From the IMG/VR virus record IMGVR_UViG_3300045996_002769, positions 1 through 25,778 of that record: a DNA stretch of 25,778 nt. One strand, 5' to 3'. Below, in pieces: positions 18,361 through 25,778 of this stretch (positions within the stretch are counted from its first letter, which is position 1; each line of letters begins with the position of its first letter). A program made the translations under genes and the position numbers. The notes below the pieces were generated by a model. That model had not been told where the DNA came from. It was given only the letters and a program-made list of their open reading frames with translations, and did no database searches. Source of the DNA: a virus.

Positions 18361-19128
18361 ATGCGTGACAAGAACCTGGCACTCACGAGGGCGATGGACG
18401 CGGTCCGCGCCTTCCACACCAAGAACGGCTTCACCGTCGGGCGGCCGCTGATCCAGCCGGTCGCGGACCCGCTCTCCGAGGGCGGGGCGTCGGACCGGAT
18501 CAAGGGCCTCTCCGGCTGGCTCGCCACGCAGGCGGAGACCATGGAGTCCGGGTGCCACGTGCCCGGCACGTTCGACGACCGCGTGCTGCGGACGCACCTG
18601 ATGCTCGAGGAGCTGGGAGAGTCCTTGCAGGCCCTGGCCGCGCGCGACGAGCGTCTGCTGTTCGACGGCCTGGTCGACCTGCTCTACGTACTGGTCGGCA
18701 CCGCGGTGGCGTACGACCTCCCGCTGGCCGAGGGCTTCGAGGAGGTCCACGCGTCGAACATGACCAAGTCCCGGCAGAACACGGGCAAGGGGCGGATGTG
18801 CAAGACGGTCCAGACGGACGGCGACGTGCGCATCCGCGACAAGGGGCCGAACTACGTGCCGCCCGACCTCGAGCGCGTGCTACGCGAGTACCGCGCCCGG
18901 ACCCTGCTCGAGGCGACGGAGGTGGAGCGCAACGCCGACGCGGCCGCGTCCATGACCGTGGCCATGCGCTGCCTCCGCTGCGAGCGCGTGATCAAGGACC
19001 TGGCCCACCTCGGGGACGTGCCGATCGGGACCGAGGTCTGCACCTGCCGGACCCCAGTGACCCACCCCCACCAGATCGAGCCCAGGAGAGAACCGGGCTC
19101 CGTGGCGGAGCCCGGACCGACCAAGTGA
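18361..19128 (+). CDS. MazG-type nucleotide pyrophosphohydrolase
   Basis: 255 residues from ATG 18361, behind the strong leader AAAGGAGACAGCAC. The all-alpha NTP pyrophosphohydrolase core is at about 75-145: LEELGE (82-87, ExxE metal ligands) and FDGLVDLLYVLVGTAVAY (101-118; D102, D106), followed by 'EGFEEVHASNMTKSR', the usual ending of this phage family. These enzymes cleave NTPs or dNTPs to NMP and PPi. The last 100 residues are extra: a helix and a Cys region (MRCLRCERV, VCTCRT) that could bind zinc. A T4-like dCTPase role, clearing dCTP so that a modified form is used instead, is inferred from the neighbouring enzymes only. Confidence 0.82.
   Translation: MRDKNLALTRAMDAVRAFHTKNGFTVGRPLIQPVADPLSEGGASDRIKGLSGWLATQAETMESGCHVPGTFDDRVLRTHLMLEELGESLQALAARDERLLFDGLVDLLYVLVGTAVAYDLPLAEGFEEVHASNMTKSRQNTGKGRMCKTVQTDGDVRIRDKGPNYVPPDLERVLREYRARTLLEATEVERNADAAASMTVAMRCLRCERVIKDLAHLGDVPIGTEVCTCRTPVTHPHQIEPRREPGSVAEPGPTK
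19093..19115 (+). other. Hairpin inside the end of the MazG-like gene
   Basis: CCGGGCTCCG (19093-19102) and CGGAGCCCGG (19106-19115) form a perfect 10-bp stem with a 3-base loop, within the last codons of the gene (encoding EPGSVAEPG). It is followed 17 bases later by another stem-loop. Confidence 0.5.
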
Positions 19129-19132
19129 CTTC

Positions 19133-19169
19133 TGGCCCAGGCCGCGCCCGAAAACGCGCGCCTGGGCCA
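19133..19169 (+). terminator. Stem-loop between the MazG-like gene and the TS-family gene
   Basis: TGGCCCAGG (19133-19141) pairs with CCTGGGCCA (19161-19169) and is extended by four more pairs with one bulge (C42-G60, GCG/CGC). A GAAAA-containing loop is followed by CTTT. It starts 4 bases after the stop and is the most terminator-like structure in the window, though with only three U. Confidence 0.5.
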
Positions 19170-19242
19170 CTTTACCGAACAGACACCTAACAAGAAGGGA
19201 AGCAAGGGAATGACGACGACATCGGTGCAACTAGGAGGCCAC

Positions 19243-20346
19243 ATGCACCAGGCCTCGGCCTCGCACGTCGCCGCGTGCGTCGACGACCTCTGGGTCGAGA
19301 CGGCGCGGGACGTGCTCAAGTGGGGCCGCCAGATCGAGAGCCGCGACGGGGACTGCAAGGAGCTCCTCAACGTGTGCCTCACGCTGACGGACCCCGGGCG
19401 GAACGTGGTGACCAACCGCGTCCGCCGCTTCAACGCTACGTACTGCTCGGCCGAGCTGCTGTGGTACCTCTCCGGGCGGCGGACGGTGGAGATGCTCCTC
19501 CCGCTCGCGCCGCACTACAACCGGTTCACGAACGTGATCCACGCGGAGCAGGTCGCCTACGGGGCGTACGGCCACCGCTGGATGCAGAACCGGTCGGTCC
19601 GCCTCTCGCTCGCCGAGCTGGGCCGCCGCATGACGTGGCCGAGCGACCAGCTCAACCTCGCGGTCCGGCTGCTCAAGGACAAGCCGCTCAGCCGCCAGGC
19701 GGTGGTCACGACGTGGGAGGCGACGGACCTGGTCCACGCCGTGGCCGGCGGGATGAACGACCTGCCGTGCCAGATAGGCTTCCAGCTCCTGCTCCGCGAC
19801 GGGCGGCTCCACATGACGGTCTCCCAGCGCAGCAACGACCTGTGGCTCGGCTTCCCCTGCGACGTGTACATGGCGACCTCGATCCAGCACCTCCTGGCCC
19901 AGGAGCTCGGGGCCGGCGTGGGGACGTACCAGCACAACGTCGGGTCCATGCACGTGTACGACCGGTTCCGCGACCGCATGGTCCAGGCCATCGACGAGCA
20001 CGACCGGCTCGTGTCCATTCCGCGCACGCTGCTGACGCACGACTACCTGCTGACGCACGACTACGCGCTCGATCGATCTTGCAGCCTCGGCTCCGCCGTC
20101 GCCCGCGCGCTGGAGGCGGAGGCAAGCCTCCGCACCGGCCAGTGGTCCTGGGCGCAGGTCCAGGACTGGATGCTCGGGATGGGCGCGACCGCCGACGTCG
20201 GCGACCTGGTCCGCGACTCGGTCGTGCTGCTCGCGTCGCACTACGTGGCCCAGTCCCCGGACGGACCGCTCGAGGGCATCCGCGAGTGGGCCATGTCCGC
20301 GCTCGCCTCGCCCCTGCTGAAGGGGGTGCACCTTGCTGATCGTTGA
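19243..20346 (+). CDS. Thymidylate synthase family enzyme, predicted dCMP hydroxymethylase/methylase
   Basis: 367 residues from ATG 19243, preceded by AGGAGG; ATG 19210 would add 11 residues. Motifs include 'ELLWYLSG', 'GAYGHRW', the catalytic Cys176 in LPCQIGFQ, QRSND (Arg196, Asp199), GFPCDV and H237-x-Y239. From Cys176 onward the spacing matches E. coli ThyA without gaps: Arg +20, Asp +23, Asp207 +31, His +61, Tyr +63. At +31 ThyA has Asn177, which reads the uracil ring; here it is Asp207, as in T4 dCMP hydroxymethylase. The E. coli Trp80 site is Phe, by my alignment. So dCMP is the likely substrate and a 5-substituted dCMP the product; hydroxymethyl versus methyl cannot be decided. About 100 extra C-terminal residues are unusual. 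Confidence 0.85.
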   Translation: MHQASASHVAACVDDLWVETARDVLKWGRQIESRDGDCKELLNVCLTLTDPGRNVVTNRVRRFNATYCSAELLWYLSGRRTVEMLLPLAPHYNRFTNVIHAEQVAYGAYGHRWMQNRSVRLSLAELGRRMTWPSDQLNLAVRLLKDKPLSRQAVVTTWEATDLVHAVAGGMNDLPCQIGFQLLLRDGRLHMTVSQRSNDLWLGFPCDVYMATSIQHLLAQELGAGVGTYQHNVGSMHVYDRFRDRMVQAIDEHDRLVSIPRTLLTHDYLLTHDYALDRSCSLGSAVARALEAEASLRTGQWSWAQVQDWMLGMGATADVGDLVRDSVVLLASHYVAQSPDGPLEGIREWAMSALASPLLKGVHLADR

Positions 20347-20965
20347 GGGACCCGACGGCGTCGGCAAGACGACGCTCTGCCGGGCACTGCTCAAGCGGTT
20401 CCACGAGAACCACAAGCGGTACTCGGCCTTCCCCGTGATCTACCACCACTTCAGCCGGCCGCCGTCGTGCTGGCACTTCCCGCGCTCCTACCTGCCCTAC
20501 GTCACGCGCCACACCGTCTGCGACCGCTTCCACCTGTCGGAGATGTGCTACGCCCTGGTGCGGCCGGGCGGCGCGGACCCGTTCACGGAGAACATGGTCC
20601 GGCTGCTCGAGGCGCACCTGATGCTGGCCGGCTCCTACACGGTGCTGCTGACGGCGAGCGAGGAGTTCCTCCGCTGGCAGTGGTCGCGCAAGGGCGACAA
20701 GCAGGAGATGTACGACGTCGAGCAGGTGGTCCAGGTCAACCGCCTGTACGAGAACCTGCAGGAGCGGCACCCCGAGGCGCGGGTCGACTTCCACTTCCGG
20801 CTGGACGCGTGCAGGGAGGACTCGTTCCTCTCCCTGCGCGAGGACGTTATGGACGACATACTCATGGCGTGGTCGAGCAGGCTCGCGTACATATTCACAC
20901 ACACGGGAGACTTCTATGGAACGGTCCAGAGAGAAGTTGAAGCGGTTCGTCCAGTTCTGCGATAG
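20333..20965 (+). CDS. Deoxynucleoside monophosphate kinase (thymidylate kinase-like)
   Basis: 210 residues. The TTG start at 20333 overlaps the previous gene by 14 bases and follows a purine-rich GGGGGTG site. The P-loop GPDGVGKTT (6-14) at the very N-terminus is the thymidylate kinase type. 'VCDRFHLSEMCYALV' holds the DR(F/Y) motif that follows the Walker A domain in TMP kinases. 'LLTASEEFLRWQWSRKGDKQEMYDVEQVVQVNRLYENL' corresponds to the lid and a C-terminal helix. It should phosphorylate a dNMP to a dNDP. Next to a predicted dCMP-modifying enzyme it could serve the modified nucleotide, as T4 gene 1 does; that link is inference. The gene runs 50 bases into the next one. Confidence 0.82.
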   Translation: MLIVEGPDGVGKTTLCRALLKRFHENHKRYSAFPVIYHHFSRPPSCWHFPRSYLPYVTRHTVCDRFHLSEMCYALVRPGGADPFTENMVRLLEAHLMLAGSYTVLLTASEEFLRWQWSRKGDKQEMYDVEQVVQVNRLYENLQERHPEARVDFHFRLDACREDSFLSLREDVMDDILMAWSSRLAYIFTHTGDFYGTVQREVEAVRPVLR

Positions 20966-21416
20966 CCTCGCGGAGCTGTCGACCTGCAAGAAGCGGCAGG
21001 TGGCGTGCGTGACCTTCGACCCGTGGTTCCGCGGGGTCGGCGCGGTCGGCTACAACGGGCCGCCGGTCGGTGCGAGCAACGGGTCGTGCCCCGGACGCGA
21101 GGAGCAGGACCAGTTCGACCGGTGCGGGTGCGTCCACGCCGAGGTCAACGCCCTGGTGCGGATGCGGCCCGGCCCGGCCAACATCATGTACGTCACGGCC
21201 GCCCCTTGCAGGCACTGCGCCGGGGTGATCGTCAACAGCGGCCTGATCAAGGTCGTGCTGTGGCGGGACTTCTCGAAGAACGGCGAGGGCCTGGTCGTGC
21301 TCAACGCCGCCGACGTCCTGCAGTACCAGGTGGACGACATGTTCGACGAGAGGACCATGGCCGGCGTGCGCTTCCACACGATGCTGCTGGTCGCGAAAGG
21401 AGACAAGGGATGCTGA
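20916..21416 (+). CDS. dCMP deaminase (deoxycytidylate deaminase family)
   Basis: 166 residues from ATG 20916, with GGGAG upstream, overlapping the kinase by 50 bases. The zinc deaminase signature is complete: CVHAEVN (His74, Glu76) and APCRHCAG (Cys98, Cys101). 'YNGPPVGASNGSC' before it is the usual substrate loop of dCMP deaminases. The enzyme turns dCMP into dUMP, the thymidylate precursor. It competes for dCMP with the predicted cytosine-modifying enzyme upstream, so the pair may set the balance between T and modified C. The stop overlaps the next start. Confidence 0.9.
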   Translation: MERSREKLKRFVQFCDSLAELSTCKKRQVACVTFDPWFRGVGAVGYNGPPVGASNGSCPGREEQDQFDRCGCVHAEVNALVRMRPGPANIMYVTAAPCRHCAGVIVNSGLIKVVLWRDFSKNGEGLVVLNAADVLQYQVDDMFDERTMAGVRFHTMLLVAKGDKGC

Positions 21417-23530
21417 CGTTCAAGAACGGCGGACTGATGGCCGCGACGGCGGCCGATCTGCCCGAGGCCGCGCGCGGCGCGAGGGAGCTCTTCCTCGACG
21501 TCGAGACCATGCCCGGGGACGGCGACCCGCACCGCTGGGGGAACCGCCCCTACGCGGGCGACCGCATCTGCGGCTTCGCCCTGACCTGGGACGACGAGCC
21601 TAGGTCCTTCTACGTGCCGATCCGCCACCAGTCCGGGGCCAACGTGCCGCTGGAGGCCGGGCTCGCGTACCTCCGCGACGTGGTCGGCAGCTGCAAGAAC
21701 TGGGTCAACCCCAACGTGAAGTTCGACGCCCACTTCGCGGCGGTCGACGGCGCGCTGTTCACCGGCCGCCTGACCGACGTCCAGGTCGAGGCGAAGATGA
21801 TCGACTCCGACCGCCTGATGAAGGGCGGCTACGGCCTGGACGTGCTCGCGCGGGACATCTGCGAGCGCGACATCCGGGACAAGGAGCAGGCCATCACGGT
21901 CTACCTCGAGCAGTTCAAGCGCGGCAACAAGAAGTGCAAGGACTACTCCCTGGTCCCGAGCGACCGGATGGGGGAGTACGGGTGCGAGGACGTGATCTCC
22001 AGCCGGCTCGTGCACCGCGCCCTGGTGCGGCGCAGGCCCGAGACGATCGCCCGCATCTGGGAGGTGGAGAACCTCCTGACCCCGGTGCTGTGGGACATGG
22101 AGCGCGTCGGCCTGCGGGTCGACCCGACCACCCTCGAGATCAAGCAGCTCAGCATCATGGTGGAGCTGGCCGCCCTGGAGGAGGAGCTGCACCGCGAGAC
22201 GGGCATGGCGGTGGTGCCGTCCAACCCGGGCCACTGCTACGAGCTGCTCGTCAACAGGTACGGCCTGCCAGTCCTGGCCTGGACGGACGACGAGGAGAAC
22301 GACGACAGCGGCAACCCCAGCTTCGACTCGGACGCCATCACGAGCTACCTCTCCCACCCGCTCGTCGCGACCGACCCGAAGCTCACGCGGATCATCCGCC
22401 TCATCCAGCGGTACCGCGACCAGAACACGCTGCTTAACTTCTTCGTGAAGCCGTACCTGCGGAAGCACGTCAACGGCGTGCTGAGGCCGACCTACAACCA
22501 GATCGTGCGGACCGGCCGCCTGAGCAGCAAGGACCCCAACTCGCAGCAGCTCTCGCTCGAGGCCAAGGAGCTGATCATCCCGGAGGAGGGCCACGCGTTC
22601 CTCTCCGCCGACTACTCGCAGATCGAGTTCCGCATCATCTGCCACTACATGAACGACCCCGCCGCGGTCCAGGCGTACAACGAGAACCCGGACACGGACT
22701 TCCACACGTTCGTCGCCAAGATGTGCGAGATCGACCGCGACCCCGCGAAGAACGTGAACTTCTGCATGGGCTTCGGCGGCGGCAAGGACCGCGTCGTGTC
22801 GATGCTCAAGGGGAACATGCAGCTGGTCGGCTCGCTCGGCGACGTGGCCGCGCGCTGCGTCGACCGCGGCTGGCTGGACAACGACTTCCGCGTGTTCCTC
22901 GGCGAGGTCTCGCGCCGCGACCCCGCGAAGTACAGCGACCTGGTCTACGCCTCGCGGCAGCTGCTCGGCGCGAACGTCGTCGACAACTCCCACCGCAAGA
23001 CGATCTTCGACCTGCTCTGCCAGCGGCGAGGCGAGGAGGTCTACGCGCGGTACCACTCCACGTTCCCCGGCCTCAAGCGCGAGACGAAGGCCGCCTACCT
23101 GGCCTGCAAGGCGAGGGGCTTCGCGCAGACCGTGATGCGGCGGATGCGCCACATGCCGGAGAAGGCCGCCTGGCGCGCGTTCAACTCGGCGACCCAGGGC
23201 TCGGCCGCCGACACGATCAAGGAGCGCACCATCGCGATCGCCCCGAGGTACAACGCGGCGGTAAGACATGCAGGTATCGACATACGCGCGCAGGTCCACG
23301 ACGAGGAGCTGTTCCACGGGCCGACCGAGGTGATGAGCGACCCCGCGACGGCGCACGCGCTGGTCGCGGTGCTCGAGGACACGGAGTTCCGCTTCCGCGT
23401 CCCCATCCGCAGCAGCGCGGCGTGGAGCGACCGGACGTGGGCCGACACCAAGCGGAACAAGGTCAAGATCGAGCGGGGCACCGCGGCCTGCGGACGCTTC
23501 ATGCCGGATAAAACGAAAATTGTCGCGTGA
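21410..23530 (+). CDS. Family A DNA polymerase with 3'-5' exonuclease
   Basis: 706 residues. ATG 21410 is chosen from the strong GAAAGGAGAC site. Exonuclease motifs: FLDVET (Asp30, Glu32), NVKFDAHF and YGCEDV. Polymerase motifs: A is LSADYSQIEFRI (Asp401); B is R-DPAK(447)-NVNF(451)-CMGFG; C is QVHDEEL (Asp631, Glu632). Both catalytic Asp are present, so it should be active. In motif B the usual NFGxxYG reads NFCMGFG: Gly763 and Tyr766 (E. coli numbering) are Cys and Phe, while Phe762 is kept. There is no 5' nuclease domain, as is common in phages. A region after motif B (470-545) is longer than in bacterial Pol I. It is the likely replicative polymerase. Confidence 0.93.
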   Translation: MLTFKNGGLMAATAADLPEAARGARELFLDVETMPGDGDPHRWGNRPYAGDRICGFALTWDDEPRSFYVPIRHQSGANVPLEAGLAYLRDVVGSCKNWVNPNVKFDAHFAAVDGALFTGRLTDVQVEAKMIDSDRLMKGGYGLDVLARDICERDIRDKEQAITVYLEQFKRGNKKCKDYSLVPSDRMGEYGCEDVISSRLVHRALVRRRPETIARIWEVENLLTPVLWDMERVGLRVDPTTLEIKQLSIMVELAALEEELHRETGMAVVPSNPGHCYELLVNRYGLPVLAWTDDEENDDSGNPSFDSDAITSYLSHPLVATDPKLTRIIRLIQRYRDQNTLLNFFVKPYLRKHVNGVLRPTYNQIVRTGRLSSKDPNSQQLSLEAKELIIPEEGHAFLSADYSQIEFRIICHYMNDPAAVQAYNENPDTDFHTFVAKMCEIDRDPAKNVNFCMGFGGGKDRVVSMLKGNMQLVGSLGDVAARCVDRGWLDNDFRVFLGEVSRRDPAKYSDLVYASRQLLGANVVDNSHRKTIFDLLCQRRGEEVYARYHSTFPGLKRETKAAYLACKARGFAQTVMRRMRHMPEKAAWRAFNSATQGSAADTIKERTIAIAPRYNAAVRHAGIDIRAQVHDEELFHGPTEVMSDPATAHALVAVLEDTEFRFRVPIRSSAAWSDRTWADTKRNKVKIERGTAACGRFMPDKTKIVA

Positions 23531-23664: not shown

Positions 23665-23889
23665 ATGGCTAAGACCGCAAGACCGATCGTGAAGGGACAA
23701 CAAGTGTGGTTCAAGTCGGAGTGGCAGAACCCCGGCGAGGAGAACAAGGTGTTCGTCGCGATGGACGACGAGCTAGGTGCTAAGAATCAACTCGGCCAGC
23801 CGATCGAACGTAAGACGATCCGCGTGCTTGAGAAGTGTGACCTCGCCTTCCAACCGTGGAACCACGTCGAATTGTACATGATTGACTGA
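23665..23889 (+). CDS. Unknown 74-residue protein
   Basis: It starts at ATG 23665 with GAAAGGAA 8 bases upstream; an in-frame TTG at 23644 is rejected because it lies before that site. The product (MAKTARPIVKGQQVWFKSEW...) reads as a small beta barrel: 'VKGQQVWFKSEW', 'NKVFVAMDDELG', 'RKTIRVLEKCDLAF' and 'WNHVELYMID', perhaps SH3-like, but no family is recognised. It is less GC-rich than neighbouring genes. Its TGA stop is followed without a gap by a probable decayed hammerhead ribozyme. Confidence 0.7.
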   Translation: MAKTARPIVKGQQVWFKSEWQNPGEENKVFVAMDDELGAKNQLGQPIERKTIRVLEKCDLAFQPWNHVELYMID

Positions 23890-23921
23890 GGTCGAAACCG
23901 CGTCGAGTACGCCTGAGAACC
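23890..23921 (+). ncRNA. Probable decayed type II hammerhead ribozyme
   Basis: Directly after the upstream stop codon come GGTC then GAAAC, where the intact copies have GGCC GAAAC. A hairpin GCGT-CGAGT-ACGC, like stem I with its loop, is followed directly by CTGAGAACC, like the CTGANGA core with one base lost. Stem III and the GUC cleavage site are missing, so it should not cut. Confidence 0.5.
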
Positions 23922-23941
23922 CTAACCCAAAGGAGACCGCC

Positions 23942-24100
23942 ATGAGGACCCTCGACTACCGCACGCCCCCGCGCACCGTACCTGTGTGGGTCGTCGCGCT
24001 GCTCGCCGCTGGGCTGGCCGCCGCCTTCGCGGGACTGATGGCCCTCGAGTACCTCCGCGGCCTCTGGGCCCACGGGTACGGTCTGACCGACGCGCTCTGA
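23942..24100 (+). CDS. Small single-pass membrane protein
   Basis: 52 residues from ATG 23942, with AAAGGAG upstream. A basic N-terminus (MRTLDYRTPPRT) is followed by one hydrophobic span of about 22 residues (VPVWVVALLAAGLAAAFAGLMAL) and a short C-terminus. The positive N-terminus predicts N-in topology. Small one-span proteins of this kind include holins and spanin parts, but no lysis gene is near, so I leave the role open. The ribozyme at 24102 begins one base after its stop. Confidence 0.7.
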   Translation: MRTLDYRTPPRTVPVWVVALLAAGLAAAFAGLMALEYLRGLWAHGYGLTDAL

Positions 24101-24101
24101 A

Positions 24102-24154
24102 GGCCGAAACCGCCGAGACGGCGGTCCGCGTGTGAGTCACGCGCTGACGAGGCC
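24102..24154 (+). ncRNA. Type II hammerhead ribozyme, copy 1
   Basis: Order 5' to 3': stem II strand GGCC (24102-24105); GAAA (24106-24109); stem III ACCGCCG/CGGCGGT closed by AGA, ending in the G-U of the cleavage triplet GUC; C17 at 24126; stem I CGCGTG/CACGCG with loop TGAGT; core CTGACGA (24144-24150); stem II strand GGCC (24151-24154). All core bases of the hammerhead consensus are present, and the open helix is stem II. Cleavage is predicted between 24126 and 24127. The ribozyme begins one base after the stop codon of the membrane protein. Confidence 0.9.
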
Positions 24155-24183
24155 AGTAGCCGCGAACGAAAGGACACATGCAC

Positions 24184-24555
24184 ATGACCACGAACAACGC
24201 CATCCCGACGACCACCCTCCCGACCGCCGAGCCGATGGTGCGCTTCGGCCGCACGACCCTCACCGTCGAGCAGGCCAAGGCCCGCCTCGCGGATCTCGAG
24301 GGCCTAGAGAAGCGGCTCGCGATGCGCGGCATACGCCCTACGCCCACCGAGCAGATCGAGGCCGCCTCGCTGCGGACCGCCCTCACCCGCCTCCTCGACC
24401 GGAACCGCAGCCTCCCCAACGTGACCGCCGCCGACGTCGACACGATCCTCGCGTCCCTCGCCCTCATGGCGTGGGGCGCGGACAGCCACCCCGAGGTGCG
24501 CCACGCTGCGCAGCAGCTCTTCAACCGCGTGCAGACCGAGACCACCGACGTCTGA
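24184..24555 (+). CDS. Unknown helical protein
   Basis: 123 residues. ATG 24184 gives 9 bases to the AAAGGA site; ATG 24178 (adding Met-His) leaves only 3. After a Thr-rich leader it has 'VRFGRTTLTVEQAKARLADLEGLEKRLAMRG', a helical hairpin, then 'IEAASLRTALTRLLDRNRSL' and 'VDTILASLALMAWG'. No family is recognised; helix pairs of this sort often make dimers. Its TGA stop is followed without a gap by ribozyme copy 2. Confidence 0.7.
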   Translation: MTTNNAIPTTTLPTAEPMVRFGRTTLTVEQAKARLADLEGLEKRLAMRGIRPTPTEQIEAASLRTALTRLLDRNRSLPNVTAADVDTILASLALMAWGADSHPEVRHAAQQLFNRVQTETTDV

Positions 24556-24609
24556 GGCCGAAACCGCGGGCGACCGCGGTCCGGGCGTGACTCGCCCGCT
24601 GACGAGGCC
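24556..24609 (+). ncRNA. Type II hammerhead ribozyme, copy 2
   Basis: Stem II strand GGCC (24556-24559), GAAA (24560-24563), stem III ACCGCGG/CCGCGGT with a GCGA (GNRA) tetraloop, GUC with C17 at 24581, stem I CGGGCG/CGCCCG with loop TGACT, core CTGACGA (24599-24605), GGCC (24606-24609). Compared with copy 1, both stems change on both strands so that pairing is kept, while the core and stem II do not change. It starts immediately after the upstream stop codon. Predicted cleavage lies between 24581 and 24582. Confidence 0.92.
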
Positions 24610-24643
24610 AGACCGACCTCACATCTCGAAAGGAGACAGTACC

Positions 24644-24952
24644 ATGCGCAAGGTGTCACAGTCCAACCAGCGGCGGCTCGACGGGCTCGCCAAGGCCCGC
24701 GAGGTCCTCGCCCGCCAGCGCGCCGCCGCCCAGCCAGGGGTCGCGTCGTCGTTCGAGCGGGCCGTCCGGGGCGGCAGCGGGGTCGGGGGCGCACCACCGT
24801 CCGGGGACCGACTGACCACGCGGGTCGCCGGAGTCCGTGAGGACGTCCGCAAGCTCCTGGTCTCCGCGATCCAGGAGAACAAGTGGTCGGAGTCCCACCA
24901 GCTGCTCAACGCGCTGGAGAGCCTGAGCCACGCCTTCGGTAGCAGCGAGTAG
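24644..24952 (+). CDS. Unknown small basic protein
   Basis: 102 residues from ATG 24644, behind the leader CGAAAGGAGACAGTACC, the same as at other genes here. The N-terminal half is strongly basic and helical (QSNQRRLDGLAKAREVLARQRAAA), then a glycine-rich linker (RGGSGVGGAPPSGD) and a C-terminal helix pair (VREDVRKLLVSAIQENKWSESHQLLNALESL). A nucleic acid binding role is possible from the charge, but no family is recognised. The TAG stop shares its G with the first base of ribozyme copy 3. Confidence 0.7.
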   Translation: MRKVSQSNQRRLDGLAKAREVLARQRAAAQPGVASSFERAVRGGSGVGGAPPSGDRLTTRVAGVREDVRKLLVSAIQENKWSESHQLLNALESLSHAFGSSE

Positions 24953-25022
24953 GCCGAAACGGCGGCGGGACCCTTGCAGCCTCCCGCCGCCGTCAGCGCG
25001 TACGACGCGCTCTGATGAGGCC
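24952..25022 (+). ncRNA. Type II hammerhead ribozyme, copy 3, with a long stem III
   Basis: Stem II strand GGCC (24952-24955), GAAA (24956-24959). Stem III is 12 bp, ACGGCGGCGGGA/TCCCGCCGCCGT, with the 11-base loop CCCTTGCAGCC. GUC follows with C17 at 24994, then stem I AGCGCGT/ACGCGCT with loop ACG, the canonical core CTGATGA (25012-25018) and GGCC (25019-25022). The core is a perfect match to the consensus. The loop carries the CTTGCAG word repeated elsewhere in the window. Predicted cleavage lies between 24994 and 24995. Confidence 0.93.
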
Positions 25023-25071: not shown

Positions 25072-25778
25072 ATGGCACCCACGAGCGACGACTCCAAGGA
25101 GCGCATCCTGCGCAGGATCAGGAAGCTGGTGAAGTTCGCCAACGACGGCGCGGCCAGCGAGGCCGAGGTGGAGAGCTACATGGCGTCCGCCCGCCGCCTG
25201 ATGGACGAGCACAACGTGGAGGAGCACGAGGCCCTGGCCAGCGACGACGACTCGGCGCGGCAGACGGCCTACGACTCGATCCGCGACGAGGTCGCCGCGG
25301 AGGCCGCGCGCGAGTTCTACCGCTGGGAGTACTCCGTCGCCGCGTGCGCCGGGTACGTCTGCGACTGCGGGGTCTACTGGCGCAAGACCAGGACCGTCCC
25401 CGGCGTGTTCCAGGGCAAGGAGGAGACGCACTTCTACGGGCTGCCGACCGACGTCGCGGTCTGCAAGGAGTTCTTCATGGAGCTGCGCGCGTCGCTGCGC
25501 GTGCTCGCGCGGGTCCGGTACGGCAAGGGCTGGACGACCCAGCACCGCCACTACTGCGAGGGCTTCGCGGCGCGCATCCAGCACCGCGCCCGGGCGTACA
25601 AGGACCAGGTCGGCCAGCGCACGGCCGGGACCGCGATCATCCTCGCGAAGGACACGCTGCTGCGCCGCTACGCCGCGGACAAGCTCGGGATCAACGGCAC
25701 GAAGCGGGTCGGCGCGGGACAGCGGCAGTCGAGCGCGAAGAGCCAGGGCTGGAGCGACGGGGGGAACTACGACCTAGG
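25072..25778 (+). CDS. DUF2786-like protein, 3' end outside the window
   Basis: It starts at ATG 25072 with AAAGGA 9 bases upstream and stays open to the last base (235 codons seen). The N-terminus 'SKERILRRIRKLVKFAND...EAEVESYMASARRLMDEHNVEEHE' matches the DUF2786 pattern: 'il.ri.kLl.lA....neaE...A...a..Lm..h.i'. The middle has Cys and aromatic residues (ACAGYVCDCGVYWRK) and 'HFYGLPTDVAVCKEFFMEL', typical of the second domain that follows DUF2786. The family is common in phages and bacteria and its role is not established. It follows ribozyme copy 3 in the same run of small genes. Confidence 0.78.
   Translation, partial: MAPTSDDSKERILRRIRKLVKFANDGAASEAEVESYMASARRLMDEHNVEEHEALASDDDSARQTAYDSIRDEVAAEAAREFYRWEYSVAACAGYVCDCGVYWRKTRTVPGVFQGKEETHFYGLPTDVAVCKEFFMELRASLRVLARVRYGKGWTTQHRHYCEGFAARIQHRARAYKDQVGQRTAGTAIILAKDTLLRRYAADKLGINGTKRVGAGQRQSSAKSQGWSDGGNYDL

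Follow-up and report, generated by a model that had tools for sequence, protein, structure and literature searches.

Three complete type II hammerhead ribozymes lie in successive intergenic gaps of the window analysed here, an entire virus record of 25,778 bases, with one ribozyme per gap and each at the stop codon that ends the preceding gene. The motifs, their placement, the comparison with hammerheads of types I and III and the recurrence of the arrangement in relatives were all established by computation. On these patterns we lean towards a reading in which the ribozymes would cut the phage transcript between genes and the feature under selection is most likely the 3' end given to the upstream message.

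The features of the region are as follows, where R1 is a covariance model trained on 40 further type II hammerheads, with the window copies left out.

21005-23530, plus strand, DNA polymerase A (PHROG 17, E 9.5e-75)
23665-23889, plus strand, 74-aa open reading frame (ORF) upstream of the possible relic, without PHROG match
23889-23938, plus strand, possible hammerhead relic (R1 12.2 bits)
23942-24100, plus strand, 52-aa ORF ending at hammerhead 1, with a weak match to PHROG 27643 (unknown function, E 5e-4)
24101-24154, plus strand, type II hammerhead 1 (R1 60.2 bits, E 1.3e-15; RF02276 32.4 bits)
24178-24555, plus strand, 125-aa ORF between hammerheads 1 and 2, without PHROG match
24555-24609, plus strand, type II hammerhead 2 (R1 58.4 bits, E 4.6e-15; not listed by RF02276)
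24644-24952, plus strand, 102-aa ORF between hammerheads 2 and 3, without significant PHROG match
24951-25022, plus strand, type II hammerhead 3 (R1 53.7 bits, E 1.2e-13; RF02276 26.9 bits)
25072-25778, running past the window end, plus strand, PHROG 421 gene (unknown function, E 5e-27), 3' of hammerhead 3

An earlier sequence-only reading had located three complete hammerheads in these gaps, each beginning between one base inside and one base after the upstream stop, and both points hold for all three. The stop TGA before hammerhead 1 occupies 24098-24100 and the first G of the motif follows after a spacing of 1 nt; the conserved A is 24101, and the stem II strand GGCC (24102-24105) pairs with 24151-24154 and is followed by GAAAC. 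Its stem III is ACCGCCG/CGGCGGT, its stem I CGCGTG/CACGCG and its core CTGACGA, with the predicted cut after C24126. The conserved A of hammerhead 2 (24555) is the final base of the upstream stop TGA (24553-24555), with the first G of the motif directly 3'; here stem III is ACCGCGG/CCGCGGT, stem I CGGGCG/CGCCCG and the core CTGACGA, and the cut is predicted after C24581. The upstream stop TAG (24950-24952) supplies hammerhead 3 with its conserved A (24951) and its first stem II base (G24952), the G being common to stop and motif. Stem III is 12 bp long (ACGGCGGCGGGA), stem I is AGCGCGT/ACGCGCT, the core is CTGATGA and the predicted cut falls after C24994. All three have GGCC/GGCC as stem II. 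The cut positions, the fixed core and the compensated differences in stems I and III had thus been read correctly. The assignment to type II rests on an intact GAAA, UH at the cut and CUGANGA in 3/3 motifs, on loop-closed stems I and III and on an open stem II. They also form a cluster, as coding-strand motifs occupy three consecutive gaps around individual genes and a fourth is found in L291, a record that covers more of this virus (46,924 bases; identical across the 12,729 bases compared).

A chance origin of the window motifs is excluded by the core count against shuffled sequence and by shuffled loops almost never forming stems. The window has exactly three occurrences of the ordered core GAAAC...GTC...CTGANGA, at 24106, 24560 and 24956, against a shuffle mean of 0.12, and at least three occurrences were seen in 0 of 100 dinucleotide shuffles of the window. 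When the variable segments were shuffled, stems as long as those observed arose in 0, 3 and 0 of 20,000 trials for hammerheads 1, 2 and 3, respectively. R1 matched all three (E = 1e-13 to 1e-15). In the scan with the Rfam type II model RF02276, which the sequence-only reading had suggested, copies 1 and 3 were found with scores under the gathering score of 37, and copy 2 was not listed. Among the 40 copies behind R1, both sides vary in 14 of 16 pairs and the covariation score is 0.608 as opposed to 0.125 after shuffling, these rows having been preselected for stems. A pattern blind to the stems is therefore the fairer test, and with it both stems were present in 80% of matches compared with 0.27% when shuffled. 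The published type II consensus expects a pseudoknot between loop I and the 3' tail (Perreault et al. 2011, PMC3088659); none was evident by eye in the window hammerheads. The A preceding stem II (99% conserved in the set with GGCC stem II) and the U opening loop I are near-invariant, and these two bases could pair.

The gap before hammerhead 1 holds the sequence A-GGTC-GAAAC at the upstream stop TGA (23889-23938), in which an intact stem I and the CTGANGA core are absent. The match is weak and was made post hoc (E 0.37 over 75 kb, or 3e-4 when only the 66-base gap is searched), and the sequence is at most a relic, predicted to be inactive.

Type II hammerheads, including clusters around single prophage genes, were described by Perreault et al. 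2011 (PMC3088659), where the idea of gene-length mRNAs from clustered hammerheads was already put forward and cleavage was shown for three clusters in vitro and for one in E. coli. A 2017 review (PMC6155905) repeats the cluster pattern and leaves the role of prokaryotic hammerheads as an open question. As clusters, idea and cleavage were all published in 2011, the window array is another case of a known kind, and the earlier contrast between a novel serial array and known single hammerheads was overstated. The window motifs resemble those of RF02276 and Perreault et al. in their permuted topology with stem II open, full core, GUC triplet and position in phage gaps. They differ in that stem II has 4 bp and is preceded by an invariant A, loop I opens with U, a 4-bp loop I/3'-tail pseudoknot is not seen by eye, and the scores lie under the gathering cut-off. 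The clusters in Agrobacterium, Azorhizobium and Clostridium scindens (PMC3088659, Fig. 3) likewise have several hammerheads around single small genes on the gene strand; cleavage was shown there, whereas in the window array it is predicted only.

L291 bears a 195-base repeat at both ends, with one mismatch, and on account of this repeat is probably a complete genome, either circularly closing or terminally redundant. Its fourth hammerhead, at base 1586 (G001:1586), lies at a stop TAA whose final A is the conserved A. Further copies, which the sequence-only reading had proposed looking for in the genome and its relatives, were thus found in the former, and also in the latter: relatives with a DNA polymerase 36-49% identical carry one to six hammerheads downstream of the polymerase gene, and such hammerheads occur in 12 of the 26 relatives in the polymerase tree. 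Each of the 19 matches in the locus scan lay 3' of the polymerase gene and on its strand, and the highest counts were six (L588) and five (L292). No homologue of the window's small genes was detectable in the relatives' loci except for the PHROG 421 gene, in L555, which also has hammerheads. Together, the relatives' arrays and the small genes without homologues there indicate that the hammerhead arrangement recurs downstream of the polymerase while the neighbouring genes change. Several contigs carry 7 to 11 copies among the matches listed, which suggests that hammerhead arrays are common.

Three accounts of this distribution were rejected. A single gain in the polymerase tree does not fit, as presence is scattered, with 8 changes, and is not clustered beyond shuffles; recent tandem duplication does not fit, as the copies in several arrays are no more alike than strangers; and no particular partner gene family was apparent, the flanking proteins being diverse and mostly of unknown function. 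Average copy likeness is 0.18 within a locus versus -0.05 between loci. A near-identity search among annotated phages gave no match to the window, and the named polymerase relatives MW202657 and YuA have no convincing hammerheads. No sigma-70-like promoters were found around the array, and terminator-like sites near it are on the opposite strand only. Genes for a nucleotide pyrophosphohydrolase, a thymidylate synthase-like enzyme and a dCMP deaminase adjoin the polymerase (18361-21416), and the virus is perhaps a modified-pyrimidine phage, compare the dUMP hydroxymethylase annotation in YuA. Beyond the window, in the last ~600 bases of L315, the gap that follows the PHROG 421 gene is without a hammerhead and has a long hairpin close 3' of the stop (GGGCCCTGCTCG...CGAGCAGGGCCC) without a T-run. 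In the bacterial genome of Singulisphaera sp. GP187 seven hammerheads lie within a 5-kb stretch (L286; G013:C5:5233112-5238215), a likely prophage, and at least six lie on several short contigs of the Micromonosporaceae MAG Dino_bin41 (L258, L267, L271, L289), possibly phage contigs.

Placement was compared across about 400 phage hammerheads, with counts taken among the matches listed (~120 per scan); the stem-based descriptor gave no matches in reversed sequence. The upstream genes are open frames and not annotation, and distances were measured to where these frames end. Among the matches listed, type II motifs start within -6 to +3 of the upstream stop in 191 of 264 cases, or 135 of 188 when one is kept per upstream-protein cluster, compared with 4.2% of random positions; about 28% of type II copies are away from the stop by this test. 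The fraction is 88/113 for GGCC stem II, 48/98 for other stem II and 17/32 in bacterial genomes. With a simple gene caller the median type II spacer is 1 nt to the stop versus 26 nt to the next start. The A before stem II is often the A of the stop codon, and TAG, which can supply the first base of stem II with its G, is the stop in 58 of 156 anchored cases versus 679 of 2783 background frames. This placement rule for phage hammerheads looks new, being absent from the open-licence literature searched. The words "stop codon" do not occur in Perreault et al. 2011 (PMC3088659), nor does that paper describe a rule of stop, hairpin and cut or the type III spacer hairpin presented below. In Mycobacterium obuense (PMC4524478) a putative class II hammerhead is reported right at a gene's 3' end, and the following gene likewise ends with a class III; the placement is as in the window, but it is a single anecdote in a genome paper, without a general rule.

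Hammerheads of types I, II and III have a common core and a different open stem, and so leave different remnants on the two products. Among the matches listed, type I motifs likewise start at the upstream stop or within it, while type III motifs, sought with only three stem III sequences, are at the stop in 7 of 67 cases. The median start relative to the stop is -22 for type III (a setback of about 22-23 nt), -2 for type II and +1 for type I (p about 1e-14). The cut lies at a median of 31 nt past the stop in type II, 28 nt in type III and 46 nt in type I, the type II and III distances being similar without being equal (p 0.05 at an ORF cut-off of 60, 0.03 at one of 100). The upstream product of type III would have no hairpin of its own, since the cut leaves a single stem III strand upstream. 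The type III spacer itself folds, at z -2.0 versus -0.21 after other stops in the same loci (23-29 loci, p = 8e-9), and 78% of these spacers have a folding z below -1 versus 20% after the other stops. Type I motifs showed no added hairpin on the downstream product (folding z -0.14). Given that types I and II abut the stop and type III has its spacer hairpin, the cut is typically preceded by a stop codon and a hairpin, and most simply read, selection may be maintaining a hairpin at this point between the stop and the cut. The sequence-only reading had proposed a hairpin on both new ends; the comparison of types is consistent with the upstream 3' hairpin, whereas a selected 5' hairpin is not supported, as type I downstream products show no compensating hairpin. 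A separate hairpin without a T-run can be seen between stop and hammerhead in type III loci L641, L717, L605 and L663, and the spacer-hairpin copies in L641 differ from each other with compensation.

From these patterns we infer that the window hammerheads would cleave in the phage, that they would protect messages from exonucleases to the phage's benefit, and that this may be their selected function. Type II hammerheads would act in cis on a polycistronic phage transcript: RNA polymerase would read through, and each ribozyme would fold and then cut soon after emerging. The upstream message would end with the stop, a hairpin (stem III in the window), one overhanging base and a 2',3'-cyclic phosphate, and the downstream message would begin with a 5'-OH. 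A hairpin-capped end should resist 3'-to-5' exonucleases, and through this resistant end each small gene could obtain a short capped message of its own, with no need for an intrinsic terminator or for RNA polymerase to stop. The broader proposal, that all three permutations are 3'-end-forming devices in phages, in which the order stop, hairpin, cut is kept, types I and II using their own stem and type III having acquired one, is offered more tentatively, at a little under even chances.

Alternatively, cutting may serve to divide the operon into gene-length units, with the downstream message and its 5'-OH and leader under selection, for example for resistance to 5'-end-sensing RNases or for defined translation start regions. 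We consider this rather unlikely. Gene-length processing was proposed by Perreault et al. 2011 (PMC3088659), and the cutting chemistry gives every downstream message a 5'-OH. Moreover, counter to a pure 3'-end role, the first hammerhead in L292 and in L588 stands ahead of the first gene, with no ORF upstream of it. Against it, type I downstream products, which lack a 5' hairpin of their own, have not acquired one, and the motifs are anchored to the upstream stop rather than to the downstream start. In the two leaders (L292:10352-10460 and L588:8466-8570) the bases 5' of the hammerhead (CTATCTCTCCTA and AATCTCCTA, respectively) are complementary to the ribosome-binding site 3' of it (TAGGAGATAG and TAGGAGATT), and cutting could free that site. 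Flank-to-flank pairing as a general regulator was rejected (mean z -0.01 over 247 motifs), these two leader hammerheads being the exception.

A terminating ribosome covers about nine bases past the stop codon, which in the window are GGCCGAAAC. It could thereby hold the ribozyme open and couple cutting to translation, as would suit the position of type I and II motifs, which start at the stop or within it; for 20 of the 86 type I motifs among the matches listed, the upstream stop is the UGA of the catalytic core. Such gating is improbable, however, as type III motifs are set back beyond reach with a hairpin there instead, and gating does not predict a spacer hairpin. We hold it equally doubtful that contact with the stop is meaningless, short gaps merely pressing the motif between the stop and the next ribosome-binding site. 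Gaps without hammerheads are likewise short (median 11 nt), but anchoring stays in roomy gaps, where 64% of motifs abut the stop against 20% under uniform placement (simulation maximum 34% in 2000 runs); abutment of type II motifs is three times commoner than uniform placement allows. Type III motifs, moreover, are not pressed against the stop, and on their setback and hairpin both compaction alone and gating alone were dropped. Circular messages, formed from between-cut fragments by reverse ligation or host RtcB, are very improbable: the 5'-OH and cyclic phosphate ends fit by chemistry and GGCC stem II halves occur in all three window copies, but stem II varies between copies in some arrays (e.g. 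L063, L116), and circular or spliced products were sought by Perreault et al. 2011 (PMC3088659) and none found. Gating, compaction and circle formation are thus all weaker fits than 3'-end formation.

The three permutations amount to a natural experiment, in which an identical cut leaves different remnants upstream and downstream. Should the type III spacer hairpin be borne out, it would show which remnant is selected and would reduce the question to a simple reporter assay. In that case, too, many phages would end messages by ribozyme instead of by terminator. If the broader proposal on all three permutations is right, it would explain the purpose of prokaryotic hammerheads as far as phages are concerned.
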